Shown: positions 398 through 9,111 of the stretch, piece after piece
How the letters are laid out: each line of letters begins with the position of its first letter
Numbering within the stretch: the first letter of the stretch is position 1
Assembly (NCBI GenBank): GCA_018333535.1
Contig: JAGXTA010000014.1
Coordinates: 1-35,329, forward strand
Length of the DNA: 35,329 nucleotides
Reading direction: 5' to 3'
DNA from: Deltaproteobacteria bacterium
GTDB taxonomy: Bacteria > Desulfobacterota > BSN033 > UBA1163
Notes under the pieces: model-generated
What the model saw: the letters and a program-made list of their open reading frames with translations, nothing else
Database searches by the model: none
What the model was told of the DNA's origin: nothing
Position numbers and translations under genes: made by a program

Positions 398-3300
398 ATG
401 GATGCAATTCTTAAATTTCAGGGGCTGCTTGAAAAGCTTTTTCAATTCGATGCGTCTGACCTGGATTTCGGTATTTATAGGATTCTGAATTTCAAGAGGG
501 ATCAGATCAGAAAATTCATTCGTGAGGATCTGAAAGATACCGTCGAGAAGGTCTTTGCAGTACACAAAGATGAGAGGCTGGACAACATTGGGCTTCAATT
601 GGAGGATGCAAAACAGAAGGTAATACAGACCCTTGGGACGGCCGCCATTCTTGCCACAGGGGAATTGAAGGACGATTTTAAGGGAACACCCGTCGGGAGG
701 GACTACCTCGCCATTAAAGCCCAAAAGGAAGAAGCGGAAACCATTGACGAGATCAAGCTTCAGGTCTTCAACGATCTTTATAATTTCTTTGCCCGTTATT
801 ATGAGGAAGGGGATTTCGTTCCCCAATACCGCTATTCCATCAAGAATCACAAGTATGCCATTCCCTATAATGGCGAGGAAGTGAAGCTCTACTGGGCAAA
901 CTGCGACCAATATTATACGAAGACAGGCATCCTCTTTCGCGACTATGCCTTTTTCACGGACGCCGGCAAGACCTTCAAGATTATCTTCCGCACGGTTGCG
1001 GCAAAAGAGGAACTTGGCTCAAACAAGGCAACGAAGGCCCGGTTTTTTGTTCTGGATGACAATAGCCCGTGGGAAATAAAAGCTGGAAAAAGTCTCATTA
1101 TCCGCCTTCAATACCGTGAACTTAATAGCGGCGAAGTCAAAAAATACGGGGTTGAGGGTGGCAGCAATACATCCAGGCAGGAAAAGATAAACAGCAAAAT
1201 CCATGAATCCGTTATCGATGAAATGAAAGACCCCACCCTCAAAGCTTTTCTGGGCGGACCATACAAGAATGATAAACCGCTTCTCCTTTATCAACTTGGA
1301 CGCTTTACCGCAAAGAATACCAAAGACTATTTCATCCATAAAAACCTGAAGAGATTCCTTTCGGAACAATTGGATTACTTCATCAAGGCTGAGGTCATTT
1401 CTCTTGAAACCCTGGAGAAGGAGCGGTTCTTCGACAAGCACATCACAAGGGCAAAAGTCGTTAGAGAGATTGGAGAAAAGATCATCGATTTCCTTTCCCA
1501 GATCGAGGATTTTCAGAAAAGTCTCTGGGAGAAGAAAAAGTTTGTTCTAAAGACGGAATATGTCATTACCACGGATCTCGTCCCCGAGGACTCCCACGCA
1601 GAGATTTTGAAGAACAAATCACAGATACAGGAGTGGAAGGACCTGGGATTTATTGAAAGTGTCATTCCTGCGAAAGCAGGAATCCAGAATAAGAAATTCC
1701 CCATTGATACAAAACATTTCCCTGGGGAATTCAAAGAAAGGCTGCTGGAACGGCTCACGGAAAGCGCAGACCTGGACGATCTTCTCGACGGGGTGCTGAT
1801 CAAAAGCGAGAACTGGCAGGCGCTAAATCTGTTACAGGGGAAGTATAGAGAAAAGGTGAAATGCATTTATATCGACCCACCTTACAATACCAATGCCTCG
1901 GAGATTCTCTATAAAAACAACTATAAGCACTCGAGTTGGCTTTCATTAATGCATGACAGAATGTTGCTAGGCAAATATTTTCTCTGTAATTCAGGACTTC
2001 AATGTACCACAGTTGACGACATGGAGTTCCATAGGCTCCGAGAGAACATCAATGCAGTCTTTGGAGATGAAAACATTGTCGGTGTTGTTGCCATAAAAAG
2101 CAATCCGTCTGGGCGTTCTACTGTAAAAGGCTTCTCAATCGCTCATGAGTATGCCATCTTTTCCTCTTCAACAGGCGTTGCTGGTATTGGTATGATTCCT
2201 AGAACAGAACACCAGATAGCTCAATACAAGGAGAAAGATACCTTTGGCTATTTCCAGTGGCGCAATTTTATGAGGTCTGGTGGCGCCAACGATTTTAGAA
2301 CTGCACGCCCCAAGCTGCATTACCCAATGGTCGCACGTTGTGGGAAAATTGTCATACCCAAGATGCAGTGGAGTAAGCAGACTATACGCTGGGAGCTATT
2401 GGAAAAGATAGAGTTAGATGACGAGATTATCTTACCGGTGTCTAATGGCGTTGATTACACATGGCGGCTAGGTGTCGAGTCACTCACAAAACGCATGGAT
2501 GAAGTGCGCCTCAGGACCTTGAGCGGCGGAAAGAAAATCGTTGAAATAAAGTTCCGAATAGATGAAGAGGGTGTATTGCCTAAGACGGTTTGGGACGATA
2601 AACAAGTCAATGCCACAGCATATGGCACCACAGTGCTCCGCAATCTAATGGGCGTATCTCAGGCATTTTCTTTTCCAAAGTCTGTGTATGCAGTGCAACG
2701 GTGTATACAGGTCTGTGGAACCGAGGAGAACGATTGGGTTTTAGACTATTTTGGTGGCTCAGGCACTACTGGCCATGCCATAATAAATCTCAATAGACAA
2801 GATAGTGGCAAACGGAAATATATTCTTGTAGAGATGGGGGATTGGTTTGAGGCAGTACTCTTGCCCCGCATTAAAAAGATTGTTTTCTCTGATGATTGGA
2901 AAGACGGAAAACCTCAAAACATTAACGGCATTAGCCATTTCATCAAATACCAATATCTTGAACAATACGAAGATGCCCTTGACAACCTTGAACTCATGCC
3001 CGACAAAATCGCCCGGGGTCTCTTCGGTGATGATTATCTGCTCAAATACTTTCTGGATTTCGAGACCAAAGACAACCCCAGTTTACTCAACATAGAGCAT
3101 CTCAAGAAACCTTTCTCTTATAAGCTCAAGGTGAATCTGGAGGAGGTGGGTGAACACCAGGAGGTGATCGTGGATATACCCGAAACCTTTCATTATCTCC
3201 TTGGGTTCAAGATGAATAAGGTGAAGGTTCGGAAGAACAAGGGCAAGAAATATCTTTTTACCCTTGGCGAGAAAGAAAACCGGACCATTGCCGTTGTCTG

Positions 3301-3499
3301 GCGGGAGTATGATGATGATTGGACGCAGGTAGATTTCAAAAGAGACAAGGATTTTATTATTGAAGAGCTCGGCCCCTGGTCACCCCAGATCGTCTATGTG
3401 AACGGACAGAGCGTCCTCACCCCAACATTCGGTGATCATGTTGTCGAGATTCGTTCCATCGAGCCCGAATTCAAGGCGTTGATGGTGAATTCTTTATGA
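398..3499 (+). CDS. mod: Type III restriction-modification system, DNA methyltransferase (Mod) subunit
   Basis: Beta-class adenine methyltransferase of 1033 residues, longer than classical Mod proteins (about 650). The catalytic motif IV DPPYNT is at residues 493-498. The S-adenosylmethionine-binding motif, DYFGGSGTT, follows at 783-791, which is the beta-class order. The roughly 290 residues between them should hold the target-recognition domain. Mod recognises a short asymmetric site and methylates adenine, and pairs with Res (3913-6969) for cleavage. GGAG lies 7 bases before the ATG. A palindromic REP-like repeat is embedded in frame at residues 422-430 (VIPAKAGIQ), at the junction of the N-terminal region and methylase core. 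The reading frame is otherwise intact, so it is probably functional. Substrate sequence cannot be inferred. Confidence 0.93.
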   Translation: MDAILKFQGLLEKLFQFDASDLDFGIYRILNFKRDQIRKFIREDLKDTVEKVFAVHKDERLDNIGLQLEDAKQKVIQTLGTAAILATGELKDDFKGTPVGRDYLAIKAQKEEAETIDEIKLQVFNDLYNFFARYYEEGDFVPQYRYSIKNHKYAIPYNGEEVKLYWANCDQYYTKTGILFRDYAFFTDAGKTFKIIFRTVAAKEELGSNKATKARFFVLDDNSPWEIKAGKSLIIRLQYRELNSGEVKKYGVEGGSNTSRQEKINSKIHESVIDEMKDPTLKAFLGGPYKNDKPLLLYQLGRFTAKNTKDYFIHKNLKRFLSEQLDYFIKAEVISLETLEKERFFDKHITRAKVVREIGEKIIDFLSQIEDFQKSLWEKKKFVLKTEYVITTDLVPEDSHAEILKNKSQIQEWKDLGFIESVIPAKAGIQNKKFPIDTKHFPGEFKERLLERLTESADLDDLLDGVLIKSENWQALNLLQGKYREKVKCIYIDPPYNTNASEILYKNNYKHSSWLSLMHDRMLLGKYFLCNSGLQCTTVDDMEFHRLRENINAVFGDENIVGVVAIKSNPSGRSTVKGFSIAHEYAIFSSSTGVAGIGMIPRTEHQIAQYKEKDTFGYFQWRNFMRSGGANDFRTARPKLHYPMVARCGKIVIPKMQWSKQTIRWELLEKIELDDEIILPVSNGVDYTWRLGVESLTKRMDEVRLRTLSGGKKIVEIKFRIDEEGVLPKTVWDDKQVNATAYGTTVLRNLMGVSQAFSFPKSVYAVQRCIQVCGTEENDWVLDYFGGSGTTGHAIINLNRQDSGKRKYILVEMGDWFEAVLLPRIKKIVFSDDWKDGKPQNINGISHFIKYQYLEQYEDALDNLELMPDKIARGLFGDDYLLKYFLDFETKDNPSLLNIEHLKKPFSYKLKVNLEEVGEHQEVIVDIPETFHYLLGFKMNKVKVRKNKGKKYLFTLGEKENRTIAVVWREYDDDWTQVDFKRDKDFIIEELGPWSPQIVYVNGQSVLTPTFGDHVVEIRSIEPEFKALMVNSL
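1661..1687. repeat. REP-like palindromic repeat inserted in frame within mod
   Basis: The unit reads GTCATTCCTGCGAAAGCAGG followed by AATCCAG. Its core is an inverted repeat (ATTCCTGC / GCAGGAAT around GAAA). Read in the mod frame it gives VIPAKAGIQ; read on the other strand it gives WIPAFAGMT. Both peptides are familiar hallmarks of a repeat that is widespread in bacterial intergenic DNA. It is exactly 27 bases, so it keeps the frame. Confidence 0.8.
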
Positions 3500-3912: not shown

Positions 3913-6900
3913 ATGAAGATTGAAAAATATCTCGTTCTCAATAAATACCTTCTTTCGCTGTTTGGCGTTGCCGAGGTCAGGGATTTACAGAAAGAGCTGG
4001 CGGAGAAGCCCGTGGGTTATGACTCTGACGGGAGAAGTTATTTTGTCAATGTGCTTCGTTCCCTGGATGGCCTGCAAAGGGTTAAATTATCCGAGGAGAT
4101 ACTTCTCCACTACGATGGGAACATCCGTGGTTACGTGGCGAGAATCAATGCCAGACGGGAACCCAAGATTATCCTGAAATACTTCCAGTACCTGGCCGTC
4201 CTTTTCGCTGAGATTTATCTCGACGAACTAAAGAACAGAAAAATCGGGTTATTGAGTGATCTGAATACATTTCTCGACAGTTATTGTCGTGAAAACGATC
4301 TTGGCGACCGAATCGGCAATTTCACCGAAGATGACCTGAGAAAGCTTGCCTTCTGGATGGCAACGGGGTCCGGTAAGACTCTGCTGCTTCATATCAATTA
4401 TCACCAGTTCCTTCGCTATAAACTATTTTCTCCCGATAATATCATCCTGATCACACCTAACGAAGGCCTTTCCAGGCAGCATTTAGAAGAGCTTCAAAAA
4501 AGCGGCATCCCGTGCAGACTCTACGGCGGTAATTTGAGCAATGTGGGCCTCCTGCCGGGTGAGAAAGGGATGTTGATCCTGGAGATGACGAAGCTGGTAG
4601 AAGAGAAAAAAGGAGGAGGAGTGACCCTTCCCGTAGAAGTTTTTGAGGGGCAGAACCTTCTTTTTGTGGATGAGGGGCATAAGGGGAAGAAATCAGAGGA
4701 GCAGAAGTGGGCCAAGCTAAGAAACAGGGTCGCAGAGAACGGCTTTGTTTTCGAATACAGCGCCACCTTCGGACAGATCCTGACTGAAAGTAATCGAGAG
4801 ACACTCGTGGAATATGCGAAGGCCATCGTCTTTGATTATTCATACAGATACTTTTACCTCGACGGCTATGGGAAGGATTTTTCCGTGCTCAATGTCAAAC
4901 CAGGTAATCTAAATCAGCAGCAGTTTCAGGAAACGATGTTCGTCGCTAATCTCCTGGCCTTTTACCAGCAATACCTTGCCTATGAAGACAATCGATTGCT
5001 TGCCCAGGAGCACAATCTTGAAAAACCCCTCTGGATTTTTGTTGGGACCACTGTCAACGAAGAGGAATCGGACGTCCTTCAGATCATCGAATTATTCCGG
5101 AGGGTCCTGCATGATGAAGGCTGGGTGCGTAAACAAGCGAAGATCATCCTTGATGGCCGCTCAGGGTTGAAAAATGAAGATGATGAAGATGCCCTGGCGG
5201 GCGAATTTGAATACATCCGGCAAGTGGGCTTCGATCTCGATGACTTATATCGAAGGGTATTCGGCGGCAAAGGGCGCTTTGGTGTACACGAAATCAGAAA
5301 TGCGGACGGCGAGCTGGCTTTGAAAGTTGGTGAAAACCAATATTTCGGTGTGGTTAACATCGGCATCGTCTCGAATGTGAAAAAGGAGCTTGAAAAGAAG
5401 GGCATTGGCATCGAGGTAAATGCTGTTAGTGGATCACTTTTCGATTCGATCAAGCGGGAGACTTCTCCGATCAATGTGCTCATTGGTTCAAAGAAGTTCA
5501 TCGAGGGATGGGATACGTGGCGAGTCTCCAGTATGGGACTCTTGAATATCGGGACAGGTCAGGGACCGCAGATTATCCAGTTGTTTGGCCGGGGAATCCG
5601 TATAAAGGGACGAGGCTATTCCCTCAAAAGAAGTGGAGGTAAAGGCCCGGTTCATTTCCTTGAGACGCTGAATATCTATGGCATCAAGGCGGATTATCTC
5701 AGCCGGTTTCTGGAAGCCATCAAGAAAGAAGAGGTTGAATTCGAGAGCATCGATATCCCTGTTAAGGTGCAACATGAGAAAAAATGGGGGCAGCTTTACT
5801 ATCTCTCGAAGGATCAGACGAAGAAGTTTGAGGAAGAGGTGGTCCTCCCCCTGGAGATTGACAAGAGGCTTTTTGTGTCCCTCGACCTTACGCCAAAAGT
5901 CATGATGTTTACCGGAAAGGACAGGGAAAAAGACGGGGGTGTGAAGATTCAGCAGGTTCAAGCGGAGAAGACGAAGGAGTTTTTGCCGGAAAATATTTTA
6001 GAGCTCCTCAACTGGCCGCGGATTTTAGCTGAATTGCAGGAATTCAAGGCATCGAGGGAGTATTGGAATCTTGTCATTAGTAAGGATAGACTTAAACACA
6101 TCCTGCTGTCGGACCGATATACAATTCTTGTGCTTGGTGAGTCGCTAAATATAAAAACAAAAGAAGATCTGAACCGCATGGAGGATATTGCGATTCAGGT
6201 TTTGAAAAAGTATATGGAGCAGTTCTACAAGCATCATGCCAAACGGTATGAATCAAGGAATATTCGGTACGATATGGTCACGCGGCAAACAGTGTTGCCC
6301 CTTTTTGTAAAGGAGGGGAATCAGTATGCCTATACGGTTCAGATAGACAAGAGGGAAAAGAAGCTCATTGAAGAGGTTAAAAGGCTTGTTAAGGATCTGG
6401 ACAAGCTATTCAAGCAGGCGGAAAAACCTCTTCCACGGGTCTATTTTGACCGTCATTTGTATCTGCCTATCCTGCTTAGCAGCAAAAAGATCGATAAAAT
6501 ATCTCCGGCAGGGCTGGAAGAGAGTGAAAAAGAGTTCATCGCACATTTCAAACAATACCTGGAAAACAATAAAGATAAACTTGGGGCTTATGAAATCTAT
6601 CTGCTGCGGAATTTCCCAAAGGTGGGCGTGGGGTTTTTCAATCTCAGCGGCTTCTACCCTGATTTCATCATGTGGGTGAAGAATGGAAAACGTCAGCAGA
6701 TTGTCTTCTTAGATCCCAAAGGTATGGAACATATCAATAGACTGGATCATGAAAAGGTTCAACTGTTCAAGGGCATCAAGAGTTTGGAAAGCGATCTCGG
6801 AAAAGTGAATATCAGCCTGCATTCCTTTATTTTATCAAAAACCCCCTATGAAAACCTTATTAAAGGGATAGAAGAACCAGAATCAAGAGAGGAGTATGAA

Positions 6901-6969
6901 GCAAATCACGTTTTGTTTCTTGACGATCAGGAATGGCCGAATAAACTTTTTCGAGATATTTTGAAATAA
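3913..6969 (+). CDS. res: Type III restriction-modification system, restriction endonuclease (Res) subunit
   Basis: Superfamily 2 helicase-nuclease of 1018 residues, normal for Res. Walker A is ATGSGKT at 150-156, with Lys155. The Walker B box is DEGH at 253-256. Motif VI is LFGRGIR at 557-563. A C-terminal PD-(D/E)XK nuclease shows Pro916-Asp917, then Asp934-Pro-Lys936. Res translocates with ATP hydrolysis after Mod binds two unmethylated sites and cuts nearby. It needs Mod for recognition, so its partner is the upstream gene. The 413-base gap between mod and res is unusual, since these genes are usually adjacent or overlapping; the gap is filled with palindromic repeats. The start is set by ATG and a repeat-derived AGGGGGAG. 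All key residues are present. Confidence 0.93.
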   Translation: MKIEKYLVLNKYLLSLFGVAEVRDLQKELAEKPVGYDSDGRSYFVNVLRSLDGLQRVKLSEEILLHYDGNIRGYVARINARREPKIILKYFQYLAVLFAEIYLDELKNRKIGLLSDLNTFLDSYCRENDLGDRIGNFTEDDLRKLAFWMATGSGKTLLLHINYHQFLRYKLFSPDNIILITPNEGLSRQHLEELQKSGIPCRLYGGNLSNVGLLPGEKGMLILEMTKLVEEKKGGGVTLPVEVFEGQNLLFVDEGHKGKKSEEQKWAKLRNRVAENGFVFEYSATFGQILTESNRETLVEYAKAIVFDYSYRYFYLDGYGKDFSVLNVKPGNLNQQQFQETMFVANLLAFYQQYLAYEDNRLLAQEHNLEKPLWIFVGTTVNEEESDVLQIIELFRRVLHDEGWVRKQAKIILDGRSGLKNEDDEDALAGEFEYIRQVGFDLDDLYRRVFGGKGRFGVHEIRNADGELALKVGENQYFGVVNIGIVSNVKKELEKKGIGIEVNAVSGSLFDSIKRETSPINVLIGSKKFIEGWDTWRVSSMGLLNIGTGQGPQIIQLFGRGIRIKGRGYSLKRSGGKGPVHFLETLNIYGIKADYLSRFLEAIKKEEVEFESIDIPVKVQHEKKWGQLYYLSKDQTKKFEEEVVLPLEIDKRLFVSLDLTPKVMMFTGKDREKDGGVKIQQVQAEKTKEFLPENILELLNWPRILAELQEFKASREYWNLVISKDRLKHILLSDRYTILVLGESLNIKTKEDLNRMEDIAIQVLKKYMEQFYKHHAKRYESRNIRYDMVTRQTVLPLFVKEGNQYAYTVQIDKREKKLIEEVKRLVKDLDKLFKQAEKPLPRVYFDRHLYLPILLSSKKIDKISPAGLEESEKEFIAHFKQYLENNKDKLGAYEIYLLRNFPKVGVGFFNLSGFYPDFIMWVKNGKRQQIVFLDPKGMEHINRLDHEKVQLFKGIKSLESDLGKVNISLHSFILSKTPYENLIKGIEEPESREEYEANHVLFLDDQEWPNKLFRDILK

Positions 6970-7086: not shown

Positions 7087-7728
7087 TTACCAGGCTTTCG
7101 GTTTATGGATCTTCGTGCCTGGAATCGGGTCGGGAAGCTGGGAGGCTTTTAGGGTTTCGGTTCGAATCGGTCTCACAAAATTTGCATAACGTTTCAATTC
7201 CCGGGATATACTCCTATCTTTGGGAAACCCCGGAACAAACAATCCTATCATTTTTTTGTGTTGTTCTTTAACAAGGCGCATGGATTCCGCGAGGTCGCTA
7301 TCATTCGAAATAACAATTGCACAGTCATATTTTTTCATCCAGGCGTCGTTGAGTAAATGAATAGCCAAATTTACATCAGACCCCTTTTCCTCTGTTTTAA
7401 TTACATCCGCATATTGCTGGGTTGGCGTAGGATTCACCAAAGGGGCCCTGATCGGGTTGCTCAAAAAATGACCATAATAGATTTCTATCTCAGGAATATA
7501 GGCCTTTAGAGCTCTTAAATAAACTTGCTGTCTTGTACTTTTCTGTGGATCGTGGGGAGGCGAAGAGACGAGAGCAGTAAAATATTTTATAGACAGAATC
7601 GAATGCTTAGGATGCAGAACAGATTGCAAGAATTTCCTGATGTCTAACCATTTAAAGGGAGTACCCTTTACTGAACCATAGTAAAGGTTGAAACCATCTA
7701 TATAGACAAAGGTACAAACCTTTTCCAT
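7087..7728 (-). CDS. NYN-domain (LabA/DUF88-type, PIN-like) putative RNase
   Basis: A 213-residue NYN-domain protein. The fold's acidic pocket is visible: Asp11 in YIDGFNLYYG, Asp118 in EKGSDVNLA, and Asp143/Asp145 in SNDSDL. NYN proteins are PIN-like, metal-dependent ribonucleases; the substrate here is unknown. The start is supported by the domain beginning right after residue 5. The coding strand upstream holds two hairpins and a U-run that ends only two bases before ATG. There is no free Shine-Dalgarno: the only purine stretch (AAAGAGG) lies in the second hairpin. Two consensus-like promoters precede it. It converges with res. It could be a defence, toxin or RNA-processing nuclease; cis-regulation by its own leader RNA is my inference. 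Confidence 0.85.
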   Translation of the reverse strand: MEKVCTFVYIDGFNLYYGSVKGTPFKWLDIRKFLQSVLHPKHSILSIKYFTALVSSPPHDPQKSTRQQVYLRALKAYIPEIEIYYGHFLSNPIRAPLVNPTPTQQYADVIKTEEKGSDVNLAIHLLNDAWMKKYDCAIVISNDSDLAESMRLVKEQHKKMIGLFVPGFPKDRSISRELKRYANFVRPIRTETLKASQLPDPIPGTKIHKPKAW

Positions 7729-7730
7729 CC

Positions 7731-7804
7731 AAAAAGCAAGGGCCTCTTTTCAGAGGCCCCGCGCCGTAAGGTCGAAACCTTACGGGTGGCTACAAATCTT
7801 TTCT
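7731..7804 (-). ncRNA. Structured leader RNA of the NYN gene (two hairpins plus U-run)
   Basis: Read on the minus strand, a perfect 9-bp stem CCGTAAGGT / ACCTTACGG with a TTCG loop (7764-7785) is followed by a perfect 8-bp stem GGGCCTCT / AGAGGCCC with a GAAA loop (7740-7759). Then comes TTGCTTTTT, whose T-run ends two bases before the NYN ATG. The second hairpin plus T-run is a textbook intrinsic terminator placed on the start codon. The 5' end is estimated from the -10 box at 7811-7816. It could be an attenuator, an autoregulatory target of the nuclease, or a separate small RNA. I do not recognise a named family. Confidence 0.6.
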
Positions 7805-7810
7805 ATTAAT

Positions 7811-7839
7811 ATTATAATTGCTTCGACTTAAACTTGCAA
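7811..7839 (-). promoter_or_regulatory. Sigma70-like promoter for the NYN leader/gene (proximal)
   Basis: On the minus strand, TTGCAA (7834-7839) and TATAAT (7811-7816) are separated by exactly 17 bases. Transcription would start near 7804, giving a leader of about 75 bases. Confidence 0.65.
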
Positions 7840-7866
7840 AGCATGATTTATGTGATTTTCAAATGA

Positions 7867-7895
7867 ATTGTATTTCTATCTATTTTGTTTGTCAA
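7867..7895 (-). promoter_or_regulatory. Sigma70-like promoter (distal, upstream of NYN)
   Basis: On the minus strand, TTGACA (7890-7895) and TACAAT (7867-7872) are separated by exactly 17 bases. This is a second consensus-like promoter in tandem with the proximal one. It lies between the DUF3800 fragment and the NYN leader. Confidence 0.55.
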
Positions 7896-7930
7896 GAAAT
7901 TTTTTCCCTTGGGGATAGAAAATATCTCCA

Positions 7931-8032
7931 TCAAGTAATCATAATGTTATATGATAGACCTGTAAGAATATAGTGGGAGGTGTTCCCGGGGATATCAGGT
8001 GTTCCTGATTCATCAACATAGCAAAGGATCAT
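7931..8032 (-). pseudogene. Truncated DUF3800-domain gene (N-terminal fragment)
   Basis: A 33-codon minus-strand frame starts with ATG at 8032 and ends with TGA at 7931-7933. It begins MILCYVDESGTPDIPGN and continues into HYILTGLS. This is the characteristic DUF3800 N-terminus: a first beta-strand, then the acidic Asp-Glu-Ser-Gly motif (residues 7-10), then a strand near 'ILTGLS'. Full DUF3800 proteins are about 200-300 residues (RNase H-like fold, probably nucleases). Here the match stops after about 27 residues and no continuation is seen in any frame, so the 3' part was lost. AGGG lies seven bases before the ATG. Its own leader RNA and promoter remain intact upstream. Too short to be an active enzyme. 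Confidence 0.7.
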
Positions 8033-8295: not shown

Positions 8296-9111
8296 TCAAA
8301 TTCGGTGGTTTCGCCAGAAATGGTAGAGGTAGAGCTGGGCGTAGCCGGCGTAGGGGCCGAAGTGGTTTTTAACAAATTCCTCCATCTTCTTCTCCCCAAC
8401 CTTCTCTCCGTTAAAATAAGTCTTCTGCAATCCCTTTTTAATCCAGGTGTCGATGGGAAAGGCTTCGAGAAAATCGAGTGAATAGAGAAGGACGCAATCA
8501 GCGATCTTCTTCCCAACTCCGGGAAGACCCATCAACCTCTTTTTAGCTTCTTCGTATGTCAGCTCTCTTAATGCGAGGAGCTGGTCTCGATCAATACACC
8601 GGCTCGTCTTGACCAGATAGTCCGTCCTGAAACCCGCCCTCACCTCTTCCAACTGCTGAGATCCCTGGATGCAGTTGGGGTCCGGAAATCCATAGCCGAT
8701 ATGGGAGTCCCAGGTCACTTTTCTCCCGGATGATTTGCATAAGGCTTCAATCAGGCAACGGATATGGGGAATGGCCTTGGCAGAAGAGAAAAGAAATGAG
8801 ACCAGGCACTCCCAGGGGTCCTGACGGATCATTCTCATTCCCCTGTATTTCTGAATCGCCTGATGAATAAAGGGGTCACAATCAATCTCCTTTAAAATGC
8901 CGTCCATATCCTCATCCAGTCTGAAGAACCGGATAAGGAAGGATTCCTCCACCCCTTCATAGAAGAGGACATCCCCTTTTTGCTGGACCGAGAAAATACG
9001 ATTAGAGGTCTGAATAAGATAGGTATTCAGGGCCTTTGTGAAACGAAAGAACTGTCCGCACTCAAGGGTGTCTTTGAGCGAAAAAGGGTTAAGCCTTAGC
9101 CTTCCTGTCAT
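8296..9111 (-). CDS. ogg: 8-oxoguanine DNA glycosylase, OGG1 type
   Basis: A 271-residue glycosylase that removes oxidised guanine (8-oxoG) from DNA and nicks the abasic site. The N-terminal part (residues 18-24, ECGQFFR) resembles the OGG N-domain Gly-Gln-x-Phe-Arg. The helix-hairpin-helix is at LPGVGKKIADC (196-206), where Lys202 aligns with the catalytic lysine of human OGG1. Asp221 in FPIDTW aligns with its catalytic aspartate. Its ATG overlaps the M16 protease stop codon by four bases (ATGA at 9108-9111), so it is translationally coupled to a periplasmic protease. The link is probably transcriptional convenience only. It is distinct from the MutM and AGOG families by its OGG1-like N-domain. 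Confidence 0.88.
   Translation of the reverse strand: MTGRLRLNPFSLKDTLECGQFFRFTKALNTYLIQTSNRIFSVQQKGDVLFYEGVEESFLIRFFRLDEDMDGILKEIDCDPFIHQAIQKYRGMRMIRQDPWECLVSFLFSSAKAIPHIRCLIEALCKSSGRKVTWDSHIGYGFPDPNCIQGSQQLEEVRAGFRTDYLVKTSRCIDRDQLLALRELTYEEAKKRLMGLPGVGKKIADCVLLYSLDFLEAFPIDTWIKKGLQKTYFNGEKVGEKKMEEFVKNHFGPYAGYAQLYLYHFWRNHRI

Follow-up and report, generated by a model that had tools for sequence, protein, structure and literature searches.

Organization of the NYN locus

The stretch of DNA analysed here, hereafter the window, comprises 35,329 nucleotides of a Deltaproteobacteria contig (JAGXTA010000014.1). Its forward strand carries a type III DNA methyltransferase gene (Mod, positions 398-3499; PADLOC MTase_III, 7.5e-161; Pfam N6_N4_Mtase), which provides a defence context, and a type III restriction enzyme gene (Res, 3913-6969; PADLOC REase_III, 3.1e-150). 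The latter converges on a minus-strand gene (7087-7728) adjoining this restriction-modification pair and encoding an NYN-domain ribonuclease of 213 amino acid residues (Pfam NYN, 1.5e-11; PADLOC HEC-09). The gene belongs to a module made up of a promoter, two hairpins, a T-run and the NYN gene, all on the minus strand; upstream of it lies an ordinary 8-oxoguanine DNA glycosylase-like gene (8296-9111, minus strand).

The promoter-like site TTGCAA-17-TATAAT (7811-7839, with TTGCAA at 7839-7834 and TATAAT at 7816-7811) agrees with the consensus at 10 of 12 positions and places the predicted transcription start near 7804; a second promoter-like site farther upstream, TTGACA-17-TACAAT (7867-7895, from TTGACA at 7895 to TACAAT at 7867, minus strand), is the better match (11 of 12). 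Hairpin 1 (CCGTAAGGT-TTCG-ACCTTACGG, 7764-7785) has a stem of 9 bp and a UUCG loop, and the core of hairpin 2 (GGGCCTCT-GAAA-AGAGGCCC, 7740-7759) a stem of 8 bp and a GAAA loop, both supported by folding and covariation. The T-run at 7731-7735, recognized from the sequence and by a terminator scan, completes an intrinsic terminator and is followed by GG and, two bases past the run, by the ATG of the NYN gene (7728-7726). All these elements, as described in a sequence-only reading of this DNA, were recovered on the minus strand, and the 8-bp core of the second stem was correct; what had been overlooked is its extension, in which GCG (7762-7760) pairs with TGC (7738-7736) around a bulged T7739. 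The full hairpin 2 (7736-7762), likewise supported by folding and covariation, doubles as the terminator stem. No Shine-Dalgarno sequence was found at normal spacing before the ATG, and the sole AGAGG (7747-7743) is buried within stem 2, in agreement with the earlier statement that the ribosome site is missing or hidden there.

The segment 7815-7729 folds with -33.6 kcal/mol, compared with -19.95 ± 3.04 kcal/mol for 200 dinucleotide shuffles, none of which was as good (z = -4.49). Hairpin 2 with its T-run is the only terminator-like site between 6900 and 8300, where 1.3 are expected by chance; the terminator scan by itself is not significant, whereas the fold and its conservation are.

The NYN protein

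The match to the HEC-09 profile (PDLC04163, 1.6e-43) is full-length, extending over residues 7-213 of the protein and positions 5-202 of the 203 in the profile. Alignment of 29 homologues revealed the invariant residues D11, N14, E113, E114, D118, D143 and D145, all of which except N14 make up the conserved acidic active site of NYN nucleases. The AlphaFold model has a pLDDT of 92, and its nearest PDB structures by Foldseek are VPA0982 (2qip) and the NYN domain of MARF1. A PDB search with the protein sequence gave no match, and NCBIfam has no model matching this protein. HEC-09 (Hma-embedded candidate) is a candidate defence protein with a putative anti-phage role: the HEC candidates have been called putative defences and several are reported to be active, HEC-09 not being named among them (PMC12988326). 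The PADLOC library entry is a protein profile, in contrast to the RNA and protein described here, and no mention of an RNA partner of HEC-09 was found in the open-access literature searched. Some NYN-family genes among the plasmid matches (H67, H79 and H85) carry the annotation 6-hydroxy-3-succinoylpyridine hydroxylase (HspA), which has probably been propagated in error.

Conservation and covariation of the two-hairpin RNA

The same two hairpins, with differing stem sequences, precede the ATG of NYN orthologues in several phyla, with representatives in Legionella, Ignavibacteria, Bacteroidetes, a Leptospira plasmid and the window's own phylum. Fifteen NYN leaders were combined in alignment A1, from which the covariance model R1 was built. 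In the window, the RNA delimited by this model (class A) spans 7726-7791 on the minus strand, its 3' end overlapping the NYN start codon; it scores 74.2 bits, the window sequence itself belonging to the R1 training set, and is supported by covariation and by independent RNAs elsewhere.

Covariation across the leaders of relatives, which had been proposed as a check, proved strong. RNAalifold detected two-sided compensated changes in 13 of the 17 pairs of A1, and among 47 RNAs fitted to R1, with 95.4% of cells paired, such changes occur in 16 of 17 pairs (6 of 6 modelled pairs in hairpin 1 and 10 of 11 in hairpin 2). The number of two-sided cells in these 47 RNAs reaches 130, compared with 30 in shuffles and no more than 33 after shifting the pairing by one to three columns. 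Since the 47-RNA alignment leans to the R1 model, a separate, model-free MAFFT alignment of the window RNA with 30 RNAs outside the training set was made, and it showed compensated changes in 15 of 15 predicted pairs.

The sequence-only reading had named close NYN homologues lacking the hairpins as an outcome that would speak against it. A search for this outcome did not turn it up: close homologues carry the hairpins. Two close NYN genes have RNAs that score weakly under R1 (L038, 16.6 bits; L021, 23.4 bits), and no clear RNA was seen beside the more distant NYN genes L034, L137 and L138.

At the gathering threshold no Rfam family matches the window RNA, in line with the earlier remark that no named RNA family is known for this arrangement, and a permissive scan of 7700-7960 yielded just four weak matches attributable to chance, abiF not among them. 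A tRNA/tmRNA search gave no hit. DNA similarity searches of plasmids and phages with the RNA itself yielded only short chance matches or none, so that the RNA is traceable there by structure instead. This RNA of roughly 70 bases belongs to a family that is absent from Rfam and spread over many bacterial phyla.

This pattern of conservation bears on the proposal that the RNA serves as a guide, that is, as the variable targeting element of an RNA-guided nuclease. Although the RNA gene adjoins a nuclease gene and one branch of the family has repeat arrays (in E. coli, see below), nearly the whole RNA is conserved stem-loop and offers no variable unpaired segment, and in E. coli the repeats hardly differ from one another. 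The guide reading was rejected for want of such a segment, and we consider it extremely improbable.

Linkage of the RNA to NYN genes

Searches with R1, which use the RNA and no protein information, covered 963 genomes, drawn from the window's phylum (297), the phylum to which L019 belongs (345) and the class that includes L022 (321). At a cut-off of at least 33 bits, 36 strong RNAs were detected, 11 of which are training loci and 25 lie outside the training set; the window's genome holds one strong copy. A NYN gene or its remnant lies directly downstream of 30 of the 36 (intact in 16 cases, broken in 12 and cut by a contig end in two), whereas none was recognized by profile in six. For the 25 RNAs outside the training set the proportion is 19 of 25 (nine intact, eight broken, two at a contig end, six with none). 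One of the six RNAs without a profile-recognized NYN (L101) is still followed by a reading frame starting with MRTIVYID, which is the NYN start. Co-occurrence of RNA and NYN across genomes gave p values of 1e-11 and 3e-9, with training genomes counted in and phylogeny uncorrected. Conversely, in the 345-genome set a NYN protein of at least 46% identity was accompanied by an upstream RNA in 11 of 11 such genomes. R1 matches of about 31 bits or less lying away from NYN genes (e.g., L058 to L075) were rejected as ordinary terminators or chance.

One genome (G013) contains an orphan RNA nearly identical to that of the window (L051, 1501-1566), and another contig of this genome (L006) encodes a NYN fragment that shares 82% identity with the window protein.

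RNA copies in other orientations and without a NYN gene

The RNA had been understood as the leader of its gene. This holds for the window, where the terminator stands before the ATG, but elsewhere the RNA is found convergent behind the gene, divergent from it and orphaned, so that the idea of a cis-acting leader is too narrow. In actinobacteria, namely in a Mycobacterium prophage (L032, R1 score of 40 bits) and a Paenarthrobacter plasmid (L028, 30 bits), both outside the training set, the RNA lies on the opposite strand just behind the NYN gene, in each case preceded by a TTGACA promoter-like site. In a sister clade with about 37% identity (L041, L043 and L139-L150), a related two-hairpin RNA (class B) is divergent from the NYN gene, and in L042 it is on the same strand. 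The class-B RNAs were picked by eye and then aligned, so their alignment (A6) is a hand-picked one; a hunt for them with regular expressions was mostly fruitless.

Orphan copies also occur in phages, where they were detected by RNA pattern scans; a second pattern added one more copy, and a third gave no further phage RNAs. In the podovirus contig L082 the RNA (4415-4478) directly follows a scaffold gene, in L125 a pattern match (4081-4150) follows an endolysin gene, and in L076, L078, L079 and L081 four identical RNAs (7125-7186 in L078) lie beside a HigB-like toxin gene, in all cases with no NYN gene. The copies in L082 and in the latter four contigs score 48-55 bits under R1. A first protein scan of viral contigs found no relative. 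The RNAs of L082, L125 and L078 are candidate anti-NYN decoys.

A sigma-70-like site matching at least 9 of 12 consensus positions stands shortly before the RNA in 21 of 37 relatives (mean of 8.6, against 6.5 in shuffles), which suggests that the RNA has a promoter of its own.

Taken together, a conserved, covarying RNA is linked to NYN genes independently of orientation and has orphan copies. It is very unlikely that the hairpins act solely in cis, as an attenuator or terminator setting the level of NYN expression. The position of the terminator directly before the ATG, in the window and in most relatives, fits such a function, but at some loci this RNA is found behind the gene and on the opposite strand, the related class-B RNA is divergent, copies without the gene exist, and hairpin 1 covaries though it is unneeded for termination. 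The cis-only reading was rejected on the grounds of orientation and orphans.

The same observations weigh on a second alternative, in which the RNA acts as a cofactor or activator, contributing structure and not inhibition, and the active NYN-RNA ribonucleoprotein detects or cleaves phage RNA. Any specific protein-RNA complex would account for the tight linkage, the deep covariation and the conserved bulge, and the NYN protein matches a candidate defence gene. A cofactor is, however, expected to disappear together with its protein, and intact RNAs are found beside NYN remnants or alone (a pattern that recent decay could mimic), and the RNA is present in phages, to which a defence cofactor brings no gain. 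We regard this alternative as unlikely.

Proposed mode of action

The reading that we favour as probable is that of an RNA-neutralized NYN RNase resembling a type III toxin-antitoxin system, with toxicity, binding and neutralization all putative; the RNA would most likely be an independent small RNA restraining the RNase, as happens in type III systems. The module would thus have two parts, a PIN-like NYN ribonuclease and a dedicated small structured RNA. Judging from its sequence elements, the promoter just upstream would produce the RNA, and hairpin 2 with the T-run is predicted to end most transcripts before the ATG, releasing an RNA of about 74 nt. Occasional read-through would give a NYN mRNA without a normal ribosome site, and the RNA would consequently be in excess of the protein. 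The folded RNA may then bind NYN and keep it inactive, in the manner of type III and AbiF/RCd22 RNA antitoxins. If a phage infects the cell or the locus is lost, the RNA would fall away, and the freed RNase would cut RNA, leading to abortive infection or plasmid addiction.

The sequence-only reading had offered the RNA as substrate, inhibitor or guide of the nuclease. Of these, the role of inhibitor (possibly also that of substrate) has the best support, since RNAs persist at loci with a broken nuclease or none at all; the guide finds little support. The presence of the RNA with close intact NYN genes, together with its frequent occurrence without an intact NYN, is the asymmetry predicted for an antitoxin. 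It is partly due to target size, since the NYN gene has about ten times the length of the RNA, and broken NYN genes beside intact RNAs, partly expected from length, count to that extent against the favoured reading. Further points against it are that the window holds one RNA unit in place of a tandem array, that the toxin fold is NYN and not ToxN, that some of the more distant NYN genes show no clear RNA, and that two close ones have weakly scoring RNAs. The broader interpretation, a structured RNA functionally tied to the NYN RNase, is supported, and a biochemical link between the two we infer.

It is highly improbable that the RNA is chiefly a substrate, matured or degraded by NYN as a form of self-limitation without antitoxin action. 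NYN enzymes cut RNA (PMC11346440), and ToxN, for its part, processes its antitoxin (PMC5086642), but orphan RNAs are left unexplained, and cleavage is compatible with the antitoxin model as an extra step.

Comparison with known systems

In type III toxin-antitoxin systems (ToxIN, CptIN and TenpIN), too, a structured RNA and an intrinsic terminator stand before an RNase gene, and these systems likewise are spread on plasmids and in phages. According to a review (PMC5086642), they are recognized by repeats, a terminator and an RNase gene. The upstream RNA with intrinsic terminator is present in the window and at most class-A loci, but not in L028 and L032, where it is convergent, nor in class B, where it is divergent; a tandem array is absent from the window, and 4-5 units are found only in the E. 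coli plasmid branch. The differences concern the toxin, which has the ToxN/CptN/TenpN fold in type III systems and an NYN/PIN-like fold here (Pfam, AlphaFold/Foldseek), the antitoxin, a tandem repeat there and a single two-hairpin unit in the window, and the position of the RNA, which is upstream in type III systems and convergent or divergent at some NYN loci, with neutralization here being putative. The module would work like a type III system and is not filed as one, given its single RNA unit and different toxin fold. No NYN system with a type III or other RNA antitoxin was found in the open-access literature searched.

The nearest tested parallel is, in our assessment, AbiF with the RNA RCd22 (PMC12373285). 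The AbiF/Abi_2 system and its noncoding RNA (Rfam RF03085) likewise show an own promoter, two hairpin motifs, a terminator and an RNase-like gene; the AbiF gene is toxic, and its RNA neutralizes in cis and in trans (PMC12373285). The protein, however, is Abi_2 (Cas13-related) and not NYN, and the window RNA has no match to RF03085.

An NYN domain does not in itself imply a toxin: a CRISPR-associated NYN ribonuclease, non-specific and Mn-dependent, has been proposed to trim crRNA in type III CRISPR (PMC11346440). The domain and the RNase chemistry are common to both, whereas no dedicated hairpin RNA is described in the parts of that publication covered here, in contrast to the hairpin RNA at the window locus.

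If the favoured reading is true, the candidate defence protein HEC-09 gains its missing RNA half, a PIN-like nuclease joins the RNA-controlled toxins, and an RNA family outside Rfam is described, with phages carrying RNA mimics being suggested as well. Such phage-borne copies of the NYN-linked RNA recall pseudo-ToxI (PMC5086642).

Plasmid repeat arrays and other leaders

In small E. coli plasmids, tandem hairpin repeats, each of about 33 nt (four in one plasmid and five in another), and then a terminator come before the NYN gene (40% identity), a layout shared with ToxIN. Among plasmid and phage NYN genes, 9 of 15 have a terminator within 120 nt upstream, compared with 6 of 68 neighbouring genes (p = 5e-5). 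That NYN/HEC-09 proteins form a broad class of RNA-neutralized RNases is a tentative proposal to which we give slightly less than an even chance. In it, every clade would have a compact RNA partner of its own in any orientation, some of these RNAs would have grown into ToxI-like arrays, and stand-alone copies in phages (e.g., L082) would be decoys disarming the nuclease. One protein family here includes RNAs of a single unit as well as repeat arrays, a natural series for studying the origin of ToxI-like arrays.

Nearly perfect long inverted repeats were also seen upstream of NYN genes in unrelated plasmids (L029, 1239-1308; L033, 3332-3379; L084, L086 and L089), with arms of 24-34 nt in L029 and L033. 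A distant NYN group (L008, L009, L015, L017 and L018) is preceded by another conserved leader, TTGCTCCCCGTYCGAC...GGACGGGGTTATTTTTTT. Finally, enterobacterial, pseudomonad, Photobacterium and rhizobial NYN genes (L083, L084, L085, L087 and L090) have other structured leaders ending in strong terminators, which possibly represent further RNA classes.
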